Positions 1,735 to 17,706 of a DNA stretch of 64,000 nucleotides are shown here, piece after piece. The notes under the pieces were generated by a model. That model saw nothing but the letters and a program-made list of their open reading frames with translations, was not told the origin of the DNA and did not search any database. The stretch lies in assembly GCA_033220425.1 (NCBI GenBank), contig CM065652.1, forward strand, positions 1,054,001 to 1,118,000, written 5' to 3'. Position 1 is the first letter of the stretch. Each line of letters begins with the position of its first letter. A program made the translations under genes and the position numbers. This DNA is from Lepraria neglecta. Lineage: Eukaryota; Ascomycota; Lecanoromycetes; Lecanorales; Stereocaulaceae.

Positions 1735-4700
1735 ATGAACGGAACTCCTCGCCTCCGTTCGGCCTATCCGTCGTCCCCCGGGTCTGCACAGAAGATATAC
1801 GAGAAACATGTGCCCTCTCCAGGGCTCCAGGGCCCTCGATCACCGCTGCCATCAGCAGCACCCTCCCAGGCAAATCCCCCAACACCGATGATACCTTTTA
1901 CCCTCATCGACGCTCCTTCACAGAGATTATACGCCTTCCTGTTTTATGCTGGTTTGAACATATGGAGATTTACAGACTTCTTCGGGTTGGTCACGGACGA
2001 GACAGAATCCTTATGGCTATTCATGAAATGGCTTGCAATTGACTCGGTCTTCCTCTATGGGTTGCCCGAGTTCCAAATCCCGTGGCTACAATGGTCGTCT
2101 TCAACAACTGCAATGCTGGTCATTTTACACACCTTTATGAACGCTTTTCTCATGTTCCGCATTCCGGTTTGTCTCTCGCCGTCTCCACCATGTTTTGCCC
2201 GGACATGCTTCTTACGACCATAACGCAGATACCCCTTACCGCATGGCTAGCCGCCTTTACGAAAATAATATATGATAGAGAGCTCGCTGTCTCGGAAAGA
2301 AGTGTCAAGCCAGCTTCAATTCTCCACAACTCATCTTTGATACTTGGAAAGCAAATAATCCATATCTTGCCTGAGGGGTATGTCAATGGCTCTTCTATAT
2401 ATGATTTATGATCTGACATTACGCAGTTCCGCTATGCTCAACCCAAACCAAAGCCCCTTTTGCCTAGGAGGCTCGCAAGCTTCTGTCAATTTGCCCATTC
2501 GCATCAATCAAACGAACCCAATCCTGATAGAGCTGCTTCGGGTCGACCTCGATACGAATGCCAACGAGACCATCACCGTGACCGCGAAAGAGATCAGCAG
2601 GCTCAAGAGACAGGCAGACAAAGAACATGCTAAGAATGATCACCTAAGTCCACGCTTTCTTCAATACACGGTGAAGGAAACCGGCTTGTATCGACTCCAG
2701 AAAGTAGTTGACGAATCGAAGCTAGAGGTCCAGAGACGAATGTCAGATACTCTCGTTGTTACTTGCCCAACGGCTATGGTGAAAGCGGCGCCGCAGGACA
2801 AATGCAAGGGTGCTCTATCGGACTTTTACCTTCAAGTAGATGCAACGCCACCATTGAAAATAAAGTACAGCAAAACTGTGAACAGAGATGATCACGGACA
2901 CGTTGTTCTGAGCATACACCCAGAAAACCTGGTTTCGCCTTTGGCTCGACAGCGCACATCAGGTGCCTTGGTTTCGCTAGATTCAGCGGCTCAAGTGGAT
3001 GTTTCCTGGGCCCGAACTCAGTCCATTGAAATCCCTCTGAACGAGTCACTTGGCGTCGGTGGAGGTTGGCAATACACGATCGATGAAGTCCAAGATGCGT
3101 GTGGGAATGTTGCAAACTACTCTCATATTCGCACACTAGAGCAAAGTCAACAGAAAATGATCAAAGGTCGCCGACTGGAGCAACATTTCTTGGTACATGA
3201 GCGACCTAGAGTCGCACTACGTGGATATGATTCGCAACATCCGATCAAGGTTGAGAAGGGAAAATCTAAACCACTTCCCATCCAATTGAGCTCGACAGGC
3301 TCTGGCAAAGCTGAGGATGCTCCATACACCCTTTCTTATCTCTTCACCCCCCAAGATGATACGATTCCAGACCAGAAACACTCAAACTCAGCAATACTCA
3401 ATGAAGTGGTCATCATAACCCCTAGTGATGGACTCAAAGTTCGTGAGCCAGGCCTGTATACTCTCCAATCTATCCGCACGCATTTTTGTGAAGGCGAAGT
3501 TATGGAGCCATCTTCATGTCTCCTCATGAATCCGCCTGAGCCAGATCTCTCCATCAGCGCTGAGAACATTCCAGACAAATGCGCTGGCAACTCTATTGGA
3601 CTTCTAGTTGATCTGGACCTGTTCGGGACGCCACCCTTCCACATCTTCTATAACATACGACAGAAAGGAGGAAGCGTTGTACCGAAAGTCCAGGAGGTCG
3701 ACCGCCTTCACACGCAACTTGAGCTGAAACCTGTGCACGCTGGTCACTATATTTACGAATTTACTAGCATCAGTGATGCAGTGTATGGCGATCCCAGATC
3801 GCTAGTGCACAAAAAGATGATCTTGGAACAGGATGTCAAACCGCCAGCTGCAGCGCGCATTCTGGACGCCCAGCCAGCACGGAAAGCCTGTATTGAAGAG
3901 CCTGTGACTTTTGCTATCCAGATCCTGGGCGAGCCGCCCTATACAATTGACTATGAGTTGGTTCATCGTGGCCGACGGCAGAAGCACACAATTACCGACA
4001 TTGTGGAATCAATGCATATGCTCATCACAGATCCTTTGAAAAATGGTGGAGAATACACTCTAGCGCTGACAAGTATCACGGATCGATCAGGATGCAAAAT
4101 TTTCCTAAAAGACGAAGCGAAAGTTGACGTTGGGTTGCAAAGACCTCGGGCTGGCTTTGGTCACTTAGAAGGAAAGCGAAACATCCTAGCTTTAGAGGCT
4201 AGGAAGATTGGTCTACCCCTGAGACTGCAAGGCGAATCACCCTGGGCGGTGACCTACCGAAACGTCGACGATGCTCAGGGCCACTCAGTGCAACAAACCT
4301 TGCGTAATAGCAACGACCAGATCGAAGTCACTGCTGAAGGGACCTACGAGATCGTCGACGTTCATGATGCCAGTTGCCCTGGTTCTGTAGACCTAGTCGC
4401 CAACCAGTTCACCGTCCGCTGGATTCCTCGCCCTTCAATTCAGATTGCTGAAAGCCCTATGGTCGAACGCATCAGAGACCGGTATGTGAAGAAGGAGGTC
4501 TGCGAAGGTGACGAAGATGTCACGGAGATCGCTTTCACCGGTACAGCCCCCTTCAACGTTGAGTATGAGCAACGCCACAAGCCCGATTCCGGCTCGCAAT
4601 CAATGAGCCCCAAAAAATTCAGTGCGGGCCTGAACATGGCTTCTTTGAGGATGGAGACTTCGGAAGCCGGTTTATACGAATACAAGTTCTCGAAGTTGGG

Positions 4701-5710
4701 AGACACCTCTTACAACCATGATCATCGGAGGTTTTCCCCCTTGATTGTGCAACAACGCGTCCATCCAAGACCTTCCGCGTATTTTACGGAAGCCGGCAAG
4801 ACCTACAAGTATTGCCAAGAAGAAGAAGAGGCTGGCGATGAGGTGGTACCAATCAATTTGGTTGGCCAACCTCCGTTCCATCTCGAATTGGAGATCAAGC
4901 AGCACATGAACACAAAGCCAGAAGTCATCAACGTCCCGAATTTAGTGTCAAACCACTACAAATTGCACATACCACACAAGGTCCTCACGCTTGGGACCCA
5001 CTCTGTTACGATTCGAAAAGTCCAGGATTCCCGTGGTTGTCAGCGGAAGATGGATTTCATCGCCCCTCACGTACAAGTCAGCGTTGCAGACATCCCAAGC
5101 ATCTCTCCACTGGAAGAACGGACGGACTACTGCGTTGGTGACCGTATCTCCTACACGCTGTCCGGTACTCCTCCTTTCAACGTTTTCTACACCTTTCAAG
5201 ACCGCGAACGCAAGGCCGCTGTAAGCTCAACAGAATTCAGACGTATAGCGGAGAAGCCTGGAATCTTTACTGTTACAGCACTCAGTGATCAGAGGAGCAC
5301 TGATGCTTGCAAAGCGAAGACCAAGATCACGAAAGTGATTCACGAAATGCCTAGTGTCAGGGTAAGCAAGGGGAGGACAGCGACGGTAGACATTCACGAA
5401 GGTGGCGAAGCAGAAATACTCTTCGAGTTTGGGGGGACGCCACCTTTTCATTTCACGTGAGTCTTTCCAACGTTGTTCACCACCAAACATGCTAATATTC
5501 CTTAGCTACACACGCAGCACTACTCCGCTAAAGGGCAAGAAGCCCGAAGTTCTGGAGACCAAGAACGAGATTTCACATGAATACAGCAAGACAATTAGAG
5601 CATCAGACGAAGGAATGTACGAGGTGGTATCTATTCGGGACAAGTATTGTGCTTTCTCAACTCAGAAGGTACCAGGGAAGTCGGGCCAAAAGTTGTTGAC
5701 AAATAGCTGA
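1735..5710 (+). CDS. POM152: Nuclear pore membrane glycoprotein POM152
   Basis: Integral nucleoporin of the membrane ring of the nuclear pore. Four exons: 1735-2166, 2229-2377, 2427-5456 and 5506-5710, giving 1271 aa, the normal family size. The N-terminus is Pro/Ser rich. Three hydrophobic stretches follow at roughly residues 60-85, 100-120 and 125-144. Next comes the conserved block [20 protein letters not shown], which runs into SAMLNP across intron 2. The rest is a lumenal chain of repeated immunoglobulin-like modules. Each carries a 'GxPPF' or 'GTPPF' signature (for example [40 protein letters not shown]) and a conserved Cys. An upstream in-frame GTG is not a credible start, so the ATG at 1735 was chosen. 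Confidence is high from the module pattern and length. Confidence 0.95.
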
Positions 5711-6173
5711 GGATCTTGTTTCTAAATGTTTGTGAGCGAGTCGTTGGAGCATTGGGCGCTAGATATGATACCAAGGGCATACGCATTATTTTCTACGTGC
5801 GTTGGCTAGGTTGGGAAGATGTTCAGGGTCCAACATTTCGTTGGAGTGGTTCCGGCCCTTGTTGTGGGTCCAGTGCTGTACAGTATTTTACAGCTTACTA
5901 AGTATACTATTTCAGCCTAGCTCGCGGTTCGTAAAATAAGGAGGATATTTACCTAACTTGATATCCAATATACTTTGACAGTAAGCAGTAAACGGTTTAG
6001 GATTTTTGGATCTGAGACCCGTGCAAAATTTCAATTACTACTCAGTGGTCCCATGTTCGCGGCCAATCCTCGTAGTTCGAGCAGCCCGGACGAAAAGTCA
6101 AGGGGTTACTGTCTGGACTTTTTTGCTACCTGCGAAGCCAATTCTATGAGTATTCAGGCATTAGTTAGGAATC
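5711..6173. other. Intergenic next to the UTP22 inversion breakpoint
   Basis: Non-coding stretch between the POM152 stop and the displaced 3' half of UTP22. By the inversion model it was originally the 3' flank of UTP22. No repeat or mobile-element remnant is visible. Confidence 0.5.
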
Positions 6174-7694
6174 ATGAAGGCAGCCGGTGGCTTGAAAATT
6201 GTCGGGTCGTCGTTTGAGCATCTACTTCCTTCGCAAGGCGTGGCTTCAACTGATCCTCTAGCTCTTTATCAACCTGTGATGAATGCCTTGGAGGCATTAC
6301 AGAAGGAGATAAGGAATCTACAGGGTTTGCCTCTCCAGATACGTCAGATTTCAGCAGCAGACCCTCAATTCCGTTATGCCTCAACCAAAGCACCTTTCCT
6401 AAACCCTAGCCAATGCCAAATGGATCCAGCAAATGTCTACGTCCAGTTCGAAGGCTCCAACCGCTGGCCAGACGATATCGCAGCCGTGCAGAGGACAAAA
6501 ATAGCATTCCTCCTTAAAATGGGCGAACTCCTCGAAGAAGCTATCCCCAACCTATCAGCACGACTAGCCCTAGAAAACACCAACCACAAACTACTCAACA
6601 ATGCCTTTCTTGACATTCTCTACCCAAGCGGTGCATTCTTCCGCCTCCGCATCCACCATGAACGCGAACTCAATCTCCTCGAGCGCACTCTAAAAGATAA
6701 ATCCCACACGCAAGCCAGTCAAGAAGAAAACGCCTCCGCACTCTCGACCTACAAGCGGAACTTCGTCCAAGCACCTCTGCACACTCAAGTGGTCCGCACG
6801 CTAAGTACACGCTTCCCTCTTCTCTCACCTTGCATCCGCCTCATGAAGAAATGGCGTGACTCCCATCTCCTCTCCACCCATATCAGCGACGAACTCATCG
6901 AGCTCCTCACCATTCGTACCTTCGTGCATCCGGGCCCTTGGTCCCCACCTGACGGCGTCATGCCTGGTTTCCTCAAGACATTGACGTTCATAGCGAAATG
7001 GAATTGGCGGTCTGAGCCGCTGATTGTGGATTTCAATGGCGAAATGGGCAGCAAGGAAATCGATGCTATCAACCTGCGTTTCGAGGCTTGGAGGAAGATT
7101 GACCCCGCTATGAATCGGGTTGTCATGTTTGCTGCTTCAAACATAGATCCTGATGGCATCACCTGGACGGATCTTGGTCCTTTGAACGTGGTTGCGGCAC
7201 GATTTACTAGTTTGGCGAGGGCGGCGGCTGCGGTGGCAAAGGAGCAGGGCTTGGACGTTGATCCACAGGCTCTTTTTGCTCCGTCGATGTTGGACTATGA
7301 TTTCGTTGTTCATCTAGATCCGGAGTTTGTCGGGGGACAGCAGGGACCAGAGAAGGCGGCGGAGCCTGTGTTCAAGAATTTGAAGACTCAGGCACAGGAA
7401 GATAAGAGTTTAGTTGGCTTTAATCCTGTGCGTATGTATATGGATGAGCTGAGGACGCTTCACTGGAGTAATATTGTGTTCTTCTACAATGAGCAAGGTG
7501 GCTCTGTGATTGCTGGCTTGTGGAATCCGCAGACTGGACCGAGGCCGTGGAAGATTGGTCTGCAGTACAATACAATGCCGGTGGCGTCTTCGGGTGATGG
7601 AGAAGGTTATGTGAGCATCAACAAGAGTGCGACATTGCACGACATCGCGAGACTGGGAGGGGACATGGTCTCACGAATCGAAGTCAAGAAATAA
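6174..7694 (+). pseudogene. UTP22: UTP22 (Nrap family), displaced C-terminal half
   Basis: A 506-codon open frame that reads as the C-terminal half of Utp22/Nrap, a subunit of the small-subunit processome needed for 18S rRNA maturation. Recognisable family segments include GGLKIVGSSFEHLLPS at the very start, LQIRQISAADPQFRYAS, IRLMKKWRDSHLLS, ELIELLTIRTFVHP and LDYDFVVHLDPEF, ending LGGDMVSRIEVKK. It begins abruptly: conserved sequence starts at the third residue, and an in-frame TAG lies 9 nt upstream of the ATG (6162-6164). The N-terminal half lies on the other strand, at 7816-9800. Joined, the two would give about 1147 residues, the normal size for filamentous fungi, so almost nothing is lost. 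It may be a real inversion or an assembly error. Whether this half is expressed is unknown. It is typed as a pseudogene because it is a gene fragment, though the frame itself is intact. Confidence 0.85.
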
Positions 7695-7815
7695 GCCCTG
7701 AATATGAAGATAAGATCAATTATTGAGAGACATTGATTATATCTCGACCAGAAAAAATTTACGTAGATGTATCGTCACTATTTCAAAATCGTCTGACAAT
7801 CATGTACCGAAACCC

Positions 7816-9800
7816 CTAGGCGCCCGTAATGTCCTCTCTAATGTGTCGTCGAATAATGTATGTGACTATCTGCTCCAGCACGTTCTCCCGCGGATCGTTC
7901 TGAGACCATATCAAGCTCTCTTGAATACTGCCATCCTTGAAGCGTCGCAGCTCTGCTTTCTCTCCCCAGAATCTGTGAAAAGCAGCGGCTTCTTCCTTAT
8001 CTTCTGCAGAAGGGCCTCGATCCACAGTGCGATTGACTTGCTCTGGGTTAAGTAACAGTCCTATCTGTATCCGAGATGTCGATTCTGGATGCTGCTTTGA
8101 GCTTGCAGGCGACCAAGCAGGCTTTCCTGGCGGTTTCATATGGATCAGTGAGACTCGGTCTCCAAGTCCTGTCTTCAATACTTGATAAGCCTGTCTACAG
8201 AAGGCCATATCATCGCCAATAGCGTCTGCCGTCTGAGTTGCTGACGCGCGCAGTTGCCTCAGTGGTAGAAGAACAATACTACCAAATCTCTGTTTGGGAT
8301 CGTTAAGGCTTGCGACAAAGCAGGCATCAAAATGATCCGAGAGTGGGTCATTCTGCAATTTCAGGGTACCGCTGGCATCGTGCTTCAGCATTGCGTAGGA
8401 CCACGGCGTCATCTTGAACAGGATGTTCATTCCTCTTGCACCATCAAACAAGACCGGGTGTTCAGGAGCCGAAACATCCACGGCATCTGCTTCGACAAGA
8501 ACAGGCTTCGCTACCAGGTCCGTCATTGACAAGAATTGAAGCGTAGCCTGGAAAAGCTTGTAGCTACTGTATCCTTTTGACAGCATCGGCTTCCCCTTGG
8601 GCCCGCCCCCTTGCAACAGTAATGCCGTCATGCATGCCCATTCGAACGCACCGAAGCCGCCACTGGCAAGGCCTGTCCCCCTACTGCGCTGTCGGAGCCA
8701 CACGCTGCCAAGTACACAAGCGTCCGCAAAGCTGTCGGATTGCAAGGAGGCTCCGTGTAGATGCTTCAGATATGCCAGCGAAGAACATTCTGATCTCAAC
8801 GATGCATTGTAGAACGGGGTTGGCATAGTAGTCCTGTCATTTGAAGTGCCTCCCTCGGCCTTTAGCCTAATACAATTTTTGTTGGGCAATGTCTTTGACA
8901 AGGGAAATGTTGCTCCTTCGGCAGCCAAGATGATTCTGATCTGACACTTTGACCTCGAAAAGTCATCTTCGCCATCTCCTGGGCTAACAGCGATTATAGG
9001 TTGCAGATGATTGTCATTCTGATAGACATAGTTGATGACGAAAGTGCATTTTTCTGCCTCTTCAATAGCTGTTGCAATGCAAGCCAAGTAGTACGCTCTT
9101 TTGTGAAAGTACCTATAATTAAGATAGTCTTTCTCCTGGAAAACAGACTTGGTGTGCGTTAGCATTTGTGCAAATACACGAGGAATAAGCCTTACTGATG
9201 GCATTGTGACGGCTAGATCGATTCCTAGCTGATCTCCAACCTGAATCGCCGTCTTCCGAGCATAGCTTCCAACAACATTGATGTTTGCAGGTTTTGAATA
9301 TGCCAACATATATTTTGCATCCTTCTCCGGCCGGGGATTGGGGAATGGTATCCGCGCAGTGTGTGAGTCATGCTGCTCTCGTTTGGCTTGCAGGACCTAT
9401 AGAGGAGCCGATATGTCAGAAAAGACCAATGCACTGGGCCATCAAGGTTTCATACAGCCTTTGGTTCGCGGTTCGGAATGCGTTCTATGATACTCTTGAG
9501 CTTGCGAAGAGCATTCTCTGCCTTGATCATTCGTCCGTCGTGAGGTCGCACCTCGGACAGCAATTCGTCGACCTGGAGCTGGAACATGCTCAAGTTGTAG
9601 GCGCCATTCGGTGCAGGTGTCGAACAATGTTTTCCTTGCTTGCGTGTAGGTAGGCTGCTTCGGGTGGAGGTCGTCCCCTTGGCGACCTTGCTATACTCCA
9701 CAGACGATTCTTCAGAGTCCATGTTGTAGGATATTCCATTATCACCGTTGCCAACAGGAGGTGGAAAGAGCTTCCTCTTCTTGTGTGCTGGCGGCGCCAT
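7816..9800 (-). pseudogene. UTP22: UTP22 (Nrap family), N-terminal half, truncated by inversion
   Basis: Two exons on the minus strand, 9800-9456 and 9396-7816, separated by a 59-nt intron with GTATGA...CTATAG borders. They encode 641 aa ending at TAG. The start MAPPAHKKRKLFPPP carries a basic nuclear-type signal. Family blocks follow: FQLQVDELLSEVRP, KPANINVVGSYARKT, DLAVTMPS, KDYLNYRYFHKRAYYLACIA and FWGEKAELRRFKDGSIQES. The last conserved stretch is VLEQIVTYIIRRHI, and only about seven more residues follow before the stop. Family members continue directly into GGLKIVG, which here lies on the opposite strand at 6174. The gene keeps its own 5' end and is divergent from the cystathionine gamma-synthase gene, so it sits where the intact UTP22 would have started. 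Confidence 0.88.
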
Positions 9801-10259
9801 TGTAAAGCTGTTGACTCCAGACCTGCTGGGAAACCGTTCCTCCTGGATTTGTAACCTTCGACCTTTTTTTCGGCTCAAAGAATAAAGGTAGCGAGAACCG
9901 GACCCTTGCTCGCGGGGTAAAAAAAGTTTGCCGATCTGGGAGGGCGAGTAGTAAGTTTCGTACCTGAATAACACCACAAACAATGCACTTACGAATTTAC
10001 AATTCCGGAGAGAAATATACAGAATTAAACAGGCTACAAATTTTTACGAAACATTAGTTGATTGAATAGATTGTCGAACAGATATCGTATACTGAAGCAG
10101 TTCCCAGAACGGCAAACTAATATTTACCCCGGCCTTGGAAAAAGTTAAGGTTTTAAGCTAATGCACGTCACTCGTAGATCCCGATCATGGAATCCGAAAT
10201 CGAAATTTTGGCAGGAGTCAGCACCGTTTTTCGACGTTGTACCCGGAAGTTATCAAACA
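9801..10259. other. Intergenic, divergent promoter region UTP22/CGS
   Basis: About 0.46 kb between divergent start codons, AT-rich around 10000-10080. No motif could be named with confidence. An in-frame ATG at 10161 could extend the downstream gene. Confidence 0.5.
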
Positions 10260-12412
10260 ATGGCGACAACATCAACGACGTTAATGCTCCCTCATGAGGT
10301 TGGGGAATCAATCCCGCCAGACACTGCTCATGTAAGCCTTAGTGATTCCCTACATTGGGGCATACGAAGCTGACGCTATGCAAGGCTGTGTCTGTGTCCC
10401 TGCCAACATGGAAAGCCAACGTTGGCTATGAGGAGGGCGAAGATTGGGTATTGGGCAAAATGAAGACAGGTTATCCGCGGTTTGCTATGGCTCCATACCC
10501 TTCAATTGCATTTTGTCTAAGCCGTACATCGCAGATTTTTCGTCCATAAAACAATCGAAGCCTTCGCGAATGCAATTATGGGGAGACACGGTTCCTCGAC
10601 CGAAAAAGCATTCTTATTTCCATCCCACACCGTTGCAAAAAGATGCGTCGAATTCTTCCAAAGACAAGTGCCATCTCTTGTTCCAGGAAAGTCTCTGAGG
10701 ATTATCGATCTACATCCGAATTCTGGCCTGCCCAATGGTGGTGTGGAGTCCGAAGCGGCGCACGTCAAACCGATAATGTCAGCCGTTATATTTCCTCGAA
10801 GCCACACAAAAGTCGCAAAGGCGTTCTGGCAGCACTCTGGTGATGGCATCTCAAGTCGGCGAGCCGAATACTGCCACAAAGCTTTCGACGACGGCCGTTT
10901 GACTGTGCAACGAGCTGTCATGTCGCCCAGTAAGGGTCCTCGAAGGTATCAGAAGAAAGAGTCTGTTGACCTCTCTCCGCAATGTGAATCTACGAAGGGT
11001 CTGGACGGCAAGGACTACATACAGTTTGTTGAAGAGCGTTTCGGACGGAACCTAGACGTGTCCCTTGCTTACAGCGCCAAGCTGGCAATACGAAGGCGTA
11101 TAGCAGGCGCTTTGACGGCCAATGTCGATCTACACGAGGCATTAGAAATGTCAAAGCCATCGACGCGCACGGAACAGGTGGAAGGCTTCTCCGAACACGA
11201 TGTTTATCTCTATCCATGCGGCATGAGCTCGATTTTCAATATCCACAGGGCTATGATGGCGTGTAGAGGAGAAATGAAGAGCATCACTTTTGGGTATGCG
11301 CCTCTAATGTCCTGGTGATCACGGAGACTGAGTCTAAACAGGTTCCCGTACATTGATACCCTTAAAATATTAGAGAAGTGGGGTCCTGGCTGTCTCTTCT
11401 ACGGCTACGGATCGTCAACAGACTTAGATGATCTAGAGCGACGCTGCGAGGCCGGAGAGAGATATCTGGCCCTCTTTTGCGAATTCCCTGGGAACCCTCT
11501 CCTGAAAACGCCTGACCTGCGCCGAATCCGCGCACTTGCCGATCGCTACGACTTTGCTGTAGTTGTTGACGAGACAATTGGGAACTTTATCAATGTCCAC
11601 GTCCTACCGTACGCCGATGTGGTTGTCAGTAGTCTGTCCAAGGTCTTCACTGGAGAATGTAATGTCATGGGTGGCAGGTAAGATTCAATGTCTTTCCTGC
11701 ATGATCTTTCTGAAAAGAGTCTAGCTCTGTTCTCAATCCGCAGAGCCGATATTATCCTCAATTAAAGGCTTTCATGGACAAAGATTACGAAGATAACTAC
11801 TGGCCCGAGGATGCCATATTTATGGAAAGGAATAGTCGAGACTTCGTCTCACGTATAGACAGGATAAACAAGAACGCAGAAACGATATGCGAGACCCTGA
11901 GGGCATCTCCATTAGGTGAGTCGATCCTCTAGCAGCCTCTAAAACTTGCTAATAGTCATCAGTCAAGGAGGTATATTATCCAAAGTATAGTGGGACGAGG
12001 GCGTTCTATGATGACTGCCGCAACAAGAACGGAGGTTACGGTGGCCTGCTTTCGGTGACTTTCAAGACTTATTTACGGGCTGTCACCTTCTTTGACAAGC
12101 TGGAAACCGCGAAGGGCCCCAGTCTTGGGACAAACTTTACACTCAGGTATCTCGCCCAAAGCACAATCTCCTGAGCCCCAACTCATGATATGCAGCTCCC
12201 CCTACGTAATACTAGCGCATTACACAGAACTCGATTGGGTGAGCTGTTTTCCTTGACGGTAATTCACGCTCATCAGCTGACATTCGAAGGCCTCACAATT
12301 TGGAGTTGAAGCCGATCTAGTCAGGATAAGTGTTGGCCTCGAAGACCCTGCGGACTTACGTTCAAGAGTTGAACGCGCCTTGGTGGCAGCAGCTGAAATG
12401 AAAGCCGGGTGA
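10260..12412 (+). CDS. STR2: Cystathionine gamma-synthase-like PLP enzyme
   Basis: Cys/Met-metabolism PLP enzyme of the fungal Str2/met-7 type, expected to join cysteine with an activated homoserine to form cystathionine. Eight exons: 10260-10331, 10385-10479, 10535-11293, 11342-11677, 11725-11915, 11963-12146, 12196-12238 and 12290-12412; 600 aa. Family marks are [17 protein letters not shown] near the N-terminus, the long fungal N-terminal extension, [25 protein letters not shown] (the PLP-nitrogen Asp region) and [17 protein letters not shown], whose Lys should bind PLP. The end is [14 protein letters not shown], typical of the family. An in-frame ATG at 10161 would add 33 mostly basic residues. 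The shorter start was preferred because the family usually begins close to it. STR2 rather than a close paralogue is an inference. Confidence 0.88.
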
Positions 12413-16922: not shown

Positions 16923-17706
16923 CTAGCTTTCCTCGTCTAGGTCTGTCTCAATTTTGCATATCGTCATATGGCCTCTTTAGCCATGGAATTTGTACATAAG
17001 ATCTCTCTTCTGAATTCATATTCATCAATGCATCTAACATATAAACGTTCATAATGACGCATGCTCAGCGCAAACGTTTGTAATCCATCTCCACTGGAAA
17101 AAGTCCTTGGGAGTCAATTGACCTCTTGTAACTGAAATTGAAGTAGAGTGTTGGCTCTGAGGCTTTGCTAGTTCCAAGCTAACCGTCAGGGACCGGCCTA
17201 GAGTCAAGTAATAGGGGTGTAGATAGACTAGGATATCGATACTAAGGAAGAAATCCATGGAGGTGCGGAAGAAGCAGAAGTAGGTACTTACCCATGATCC
17301 GAGACACGCCCGTAACTTAGGATATAGATTCAGCTGAGTCGGGCCTACCTTTATACCAGAGTATGGCTCGAGGATACTATAATGTGAAAGCGATAACAGT
17401 TCATTACCCAGGCTTAGGGGTTAGTTATAAACGATCTTTATGTAGTTCTTCTATTATAGGTATCAGTAATGATATATATATTTCGCACTAATGGCTCGAT
17501 TTTTGGTGGTGGCCTTGGCAACACGAAGCGGGGGTATCTGCACTAAGGAGACAAAGTGGAGATGGGTTGGGTTAGGGCTAGCTTTTAGGGCTGTCGCTAT
17601 GGACAACAACTCTCGGTAAACACGGACCCTCAATCTATCGACATCACTTCGCTGCAGCGCATTCCAAGCAGGCCAATTTGGCGCCACACAGCTGGAGATT
17701 GCGACA
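16923..17706. other. Intergenic between SMC6 and kinesin gene
   Basis: About 0.8 kb with no supportable coding frame. It is AT-rich around 17370-17490, including a TATATATAT run near 17473-17481. No mobile-element signature was seen. Confidence 0.5.

Follow-up and report, generated by a model that had tools for sequence, protein, structure and literature searches.

The intact Utp22/Nrap proteins that serve for comparison here (yeast Utp22, human NOL6 and 6rxv_UV) are each one polypeptide, with six Nrap domains in total. As described by Lin et al. 2013 (PMC3794860), yeast Utp22 consists of two modules resembling CCA-adding enzymes, residues 81-689 and 699-1237, that pack as an intramolecular dimer. 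The contact between the N-half and the C-half is given as 1,621 A2, Rrp7 binds the C-half, and UTP22 is essential in yeast. The same source considers the two modules to be descended from a gene duplication and fusion. It also describes the class I CCA-adding enzyme, which has the same module architecture and is likewise dimeric, from two separate chains. Unlike that enzyme, which is active and forms a homodimer with a different interface, Utp22 is considered to be inactive, and there is divergence between its halves.

The closest worked example of gene fission that we found is the Split-Doa10 of Kluyveromyces (PMC3464245), where a yeast nuclear gene has naturally split into two ORFs. By that account, the two products assemble in trans, as shown by experiment, and the C-terminal half is transcribed from a promoter carried by the insert; in K. 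lactis an intervening sequence of 508 bp separates the two DOA10 ORFs. The text of that paper has no word on inversion, and its authors describe the mechanisms of most fission events as poorly understood. Durrens 2008 names inversion as one route to gene splitting, and rates fission as the more difficult event compared with fusion, since a new promoter is needed for one of the two halves. Frequent intrachromosomal inversions are also part of the mesosynteny reported for Dothideomycetes, which are filamentous ascomycetes (PMC3516569); the account there is of changed gene order rather than of working genes being split.

Here we describe a UTP22 locus in Lepraria neglecta where the same six Nrap domains are present in total, but on two opposite-strand genes cut at the inter-module linker. 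The window (the whole stretch of DNA analysed, 64,000 nucleotides) covers positions 1,054,001-1,118,000 of its contig, which is 4.73 Mb long and belongs to an assembly of 42.0 Mb with 11 contigs. POM152 is the left neighbour (2359..5707, plus strand). It is followed by the gene for the C-half (6174..7694, plus strand), by a 121-bp spacer between the convergent stop codons (7695..7815 in plus-strand coordinates), and by the gene for the N-half (7816..9800, minus strand). A single continuous Utp22 polypeptide is not encoded; instead there are two convergent ORFs on opposite strands. For the spacer, we find no second place in the assembly. The right neighbour (10521-11681) has two frames, of which only the second carries a Cys/Met-metabolism PLP enzyme domain. 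The only UTP22 copy that we find has probably been cut by an inversion, and its product probably acts today as two distinct polypeptides. Doa10 is a membrane ubiquitin ligase with trans assembly established experimentally; for the split Utp22 such assembly is predicted, and its halves are convergent on opposite strands.

The N-half gene has three exons (9800-9456, 9396-9196 and 9147-7816, minus strand), which splice to 625 aa with zero internal stops. Intron 1 (9397..9455, minus strand, 59 nt) begins with GTATGA, ends with CTATAG and is spliced in frame. Intron 2 (9148..9195, minus strand, 48 nt) begins with GTAAGG, contains CTAAC and ends with AAG; its length is a multiple of three and it reads through in the raw frame, where it would add 16 residues, all missing from the four aligned Utp22/NOL6 sequences. 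The splice signals are ordinary and intact. A Pfam scan of the raw frame (exon 1 excluded, the 48-nt intron retained) finds Nrap D1, D2 and D3 with 154, 149 and 159 bits, all far above the cut-off and in one stretch each. The translation has a basic KKRK cluster near its N-terminus. It ends in VTYIIRRHI followed by REDITGA and a stop codon (7816-7818) that lies on the right junction, in agreement with an earlier note on this DNA, which had assigned the minus-strand frame ending at 7816 to the N-half and placed its stop about seven residues past VTYIIRRHI.

The C-half gene is a single open frame of 506 aa, with Nrap D4, D5 and D6 at 223, 185 and 128 bits, again all far above the cut-off and in one stretch each. 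The protein begins at 6174 with MKAAGGLKIVG, so that the ATG lies 4 codons ahead of GGLKIVG, the point at which the plus-strand frame had been said to resume the family, and does. The ATG has an A at -3. Between POM152 and this start there are five other ATGs, all out of frame, and two of them (6053 and 6146) open short frames that overlap the C-half start. These two frames would hinder translation of the C-half if transcription starts before them; since neither ATG has A or G at -3, ribosomes could bypass them by leaky scanning. The only basic residues of note are KKWR at residue 225. With no clear signal for nuclear import in its own sequence, the C-half may be imported together with the N-half or Rrp7. 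A single-sequence structure model of the C-half is poor (pLDDT 34.4).

All six Pfam Nrap domains, D1 to D6, are present across the two halves, whose summed length is 1131 aa. The earlier note had estimated about 1147 residues with nearly nothing missing; the total is slightly lower, and the near completeness holds. In a search of solved structures both halves match the same four Utp22/NOL6 sequences, and both are 40-41% identical to 6rxv_UV. Two alphaRep chains also matched by the C-half have weak scores and are irrelevant. Searches of the 42.0-Mb assembly itself give one place each for Nrap D1, the N-half and the C-half. The second intact UTP22 that had been considered possible elsewhere in the genome is thus not found in this assembly. 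A scan of viral_contigs with the C-half finds no relative. The gene for the partner protein Rrp7 is found, at C1:5483386-5483730 (114 bits).

Neither half shows signs of decay. As a measure of retention, we take the positions where 4m5d_A and 7mq8_NH, presumably the yeast and the human chain, agree in MAFFT alignments, with the intact chain 6rxv_UV as comparator. The N-half retains 83/128 of these positions, against 78/128 for 6rxv_UV, and the C-half 69/97, against 68/97. Query-anchored alignments, a method that favours the query, give 82 versus 71 of 121 for the N-half and 69 versus 61 of 91 for the C-half. Where the yeast, human and 6rxv chains are all identical, 60 of the 71 residues are retained in the N-half and 56 of the 61 in the C-half; some invariant residues have therefore changed. 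The domain scores compare in the same way over D1-D5: D1-D3 have 154/149/159 bits versus 160/161/131.5 in intact 6rxv_UV, and D4-D5 have 223/185 versus 213/201. By these comparisons neither half appears to be drifting, a pattern that excludes an old pseudogene and would be compatible with a very recent one. The locus has what is expected of a gene fission: both halves are open and domain-complete, no intact copy is found, and there is no sign of decay.

The break falls at a structural boundary, which the earlier note had overlooked, together with a repeat beside the C-half start. In the N-half the last histidine to align, H518 in the raw frame, pairs with yeast H689, and eight residues then lead to the stop. 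In the C-half L18 pairs with yeast 713, and by ungapped extrapolation residue 4 would pair with 699. These two pairings put the break inside the linker 690-698 between the modules. A cut placed at random among residues 81-1237 hits the linker in 9/1157 of cases (0.8%) and comes within five residues of it in 19/1157; we formulated this argument post hoc, once the break had been seen, from a boundary that was itself independently published. The position in the linker is our main ground for taking the arrangement as real: it speaks against a contig turned round in assembly and in favour of an inversion that passed selection, presumably because each module can fold by itself.

The flipped contig had been one of three outcomes offered for this locus: a short piece would have been misoriented in the assembly, and the real gene would be continuous. 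We consider this unlikely. The window has no N, so there is no scaffold gap at either junction. It lies in a 4.73-Mb contig, and contigs C1 to C8, each of 4.5 to 6.3 Mb, make up 41.7 of the 42.0 Mb, which makes a long-read assembly probable; its reads would span 1.6 kb. The longest exact inverted word between the junction regions is 8 bp, and a random mistake has about a 1% chance of hitting the inter-module linker. What speaks for an assembly error is that the ribosomal sequences are not found. In the whole assembly no 5.8S rRNA (RF00002) is among the best 39 of 1298 candidates scored, a conserved 5.8S pattern has no exact match, and ITS is likewise not detectable. The rDNA may be missing, and on that account the assembly may be incomplete.

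It is about equally improbable that the inversion is real but polymorphic and deleterious, with an intact allele in another nucleus or in the population and the assembled allele a recent null. In favour of this reading, the gene is essential in yeast (PMC3794860), and one assembly cannot reveal polymorphism. Against it, each half is at one place only, and the breakpoint of a null inversion would be expected anywhere, with no preference for a module boundary. At the junctions, also, the N-half has a stop codon and the C-half an in-frame ATG.

The probable inverted segment is 6186..7815, about 1.64 kb with ends known to about 10 bp, and comprises the C-half and 121 bp of its former 3' flank. The left junction lies in 6174..6190 and the right junction in 7810..7822. 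The order and strand of the halves are reversed, the halves are complementary, almost nothing is missing, and neither half has left a convincing remnant in the two flanks, by comparison at the protein level (exon 2 onward, and the C-half) and at the DNA level (the whole gene). On these grounds a single inversion is the simplest history. The inversion of about 1.65 kb (6165-7815) that had been suggested before stands in substance, with slightly different ends; the event itself we infer from the assembled sequence. As the longest exact inverted word common to both junction regions is 8 bp, we rejected inverted repeats as its cause, and non-homologous repair would be likely. An imperfect inverted pair (6291-6316 and 7993-8018, 26 nt, 77%) is coding, lies 100-180 bp from the junctions, and was taken as chance. 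In 4500-10500 the only tandem repeat at score 30 is at 10011.

Two other histories could give the same arrangement, an inverted duplication with complementary loss, or an in-place fission followed by an inversion. Together they are somewhat less credible again than either an assembly error or a null allele. On the minus strand of the left flank, where the remnant of an old copy would sit, 23 residues match a part of the C-half close to its end. This match is at chance level, as equal scores are reached by 16 of 200 pieces of 463 bp drawn at random from the window, and the halves adjoin with almost no overlap or gap. Trans-splicing of the two transcripts into one Utp22 mRNA would account for the complementary coding parts, but is highly improbable, as there is no GT in the last 45 nt ahead of the N-half stop codon and no CT[AG]A[CT] branch-like site in 6101-6200.

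The explanation that we favour, with fair though not full assurance, is that the inversion of about 1.64 kb gave two convergent genes, whose products would reunite with Rrp7 as a heterodimeric Utp22, undoing the ancient fusion. The inversion would have had one end in the linker between the two modules and its second end in the spacer on the POM152 side. The N-half would have retained its old promoter, its introns and its basic NLS-like cluster, and would terminate at the junction. The C-half would have gained a new ATG from the left flank and retained its old 3' end. Both genes are presumably expressed. Their polypeptides would fold as separate modules and find each other again in trans, by way of the natural contact between N-half and C-half and of Rrp7, a protein that binds the C-half; the resulting heterodimer would do the work of Utp22 in the 90S pre-ribosome. 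That the halves work as separate proteins fits best of the three outcomes that had been offered.

A promoter for the C-half might come from a MITE-like dispersed repeat (family A; 5921..6137, plus strand) that lies 36 bp upstream of its ATG. Family A is about 215 bp long and occurs in at least 26 places in the assembly, including the window copy, several of them partial. Its ends, counted by eye in aligned rows, are CTC[GA]CG on the left in 12/19 and GC[GA]AG on the right in 13/19; the window copy ends in GCGAAG. The family is thus short, dispersed and common-ended, the properties by which we call it MITE-like. Inverted ends vary between copies: out of 200 shuffles, none is as good in 2 of the 10 rows tested, 4, 10 (the window copy), 13, 14 and 18 are as good in five more, and 102, 182 and 198 in the last three. 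Duplications of 5 bp beside the ends are exact in 3/19 rows and match in 4 of 5 bases in 3 more, and the window copy has none. A pair of CCAAT pentamers in the sense direction, at offsets 44 and 142 of the window copy, is no more than a hint of a promoter. Seven other family A copies, with flanks of 1.5 kb, have no common placement before a long frame, and Rfam gives no hit for 5600-6300 at E values up to 1.

A second MITE-like repeat, of a different family B (9909..10132), lies 108 bp upstream of the N-half ATG. It has imperfect 28-nt inverted arms (79%), with copies elsewhere up to 95% identical. Short stretches repeated elsewhere are also seen at 17175-17286 and 17366-17529, the second with one other place among the matches listed. 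The first 20 kb of the window contain at least four short dispersed-repeat stretches (among 39 of 101 candidates scored). At that density a repeat near a junction is unsurprising: one falls within 50 bp of a point with a chance of about 6%, or about 11% for two junctions. We therefore discarded family A as a breakpoint marker, and keep its adjacency only as a promoter lead. The fuller proposal, that Utp22 has become a true two-subunit protein by inversion at the fusion point and that the family A element became the promoter of the C-half, is correspondingly tentative, and we think it rather doubtful as a whole.

No report of a split UTP22/NOL6 was found by title or abstract, nor any paper on Utp22 together with gene fission, in searches where the subscription literature is thinly covered. 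Natural fission of a nuclear gene was already known; what is new here is that an inversion has probably split, at the ancestral fusion point, a protein without which yeast cannot live. Both junctions can be read, and the cut lies at the boundary of two modules thought to have arisen by duplication and fusion. The locus raises a testable question: can the two Utp22 modules work as separate chains, like the homodimers of class I CCA-adding enzymes?
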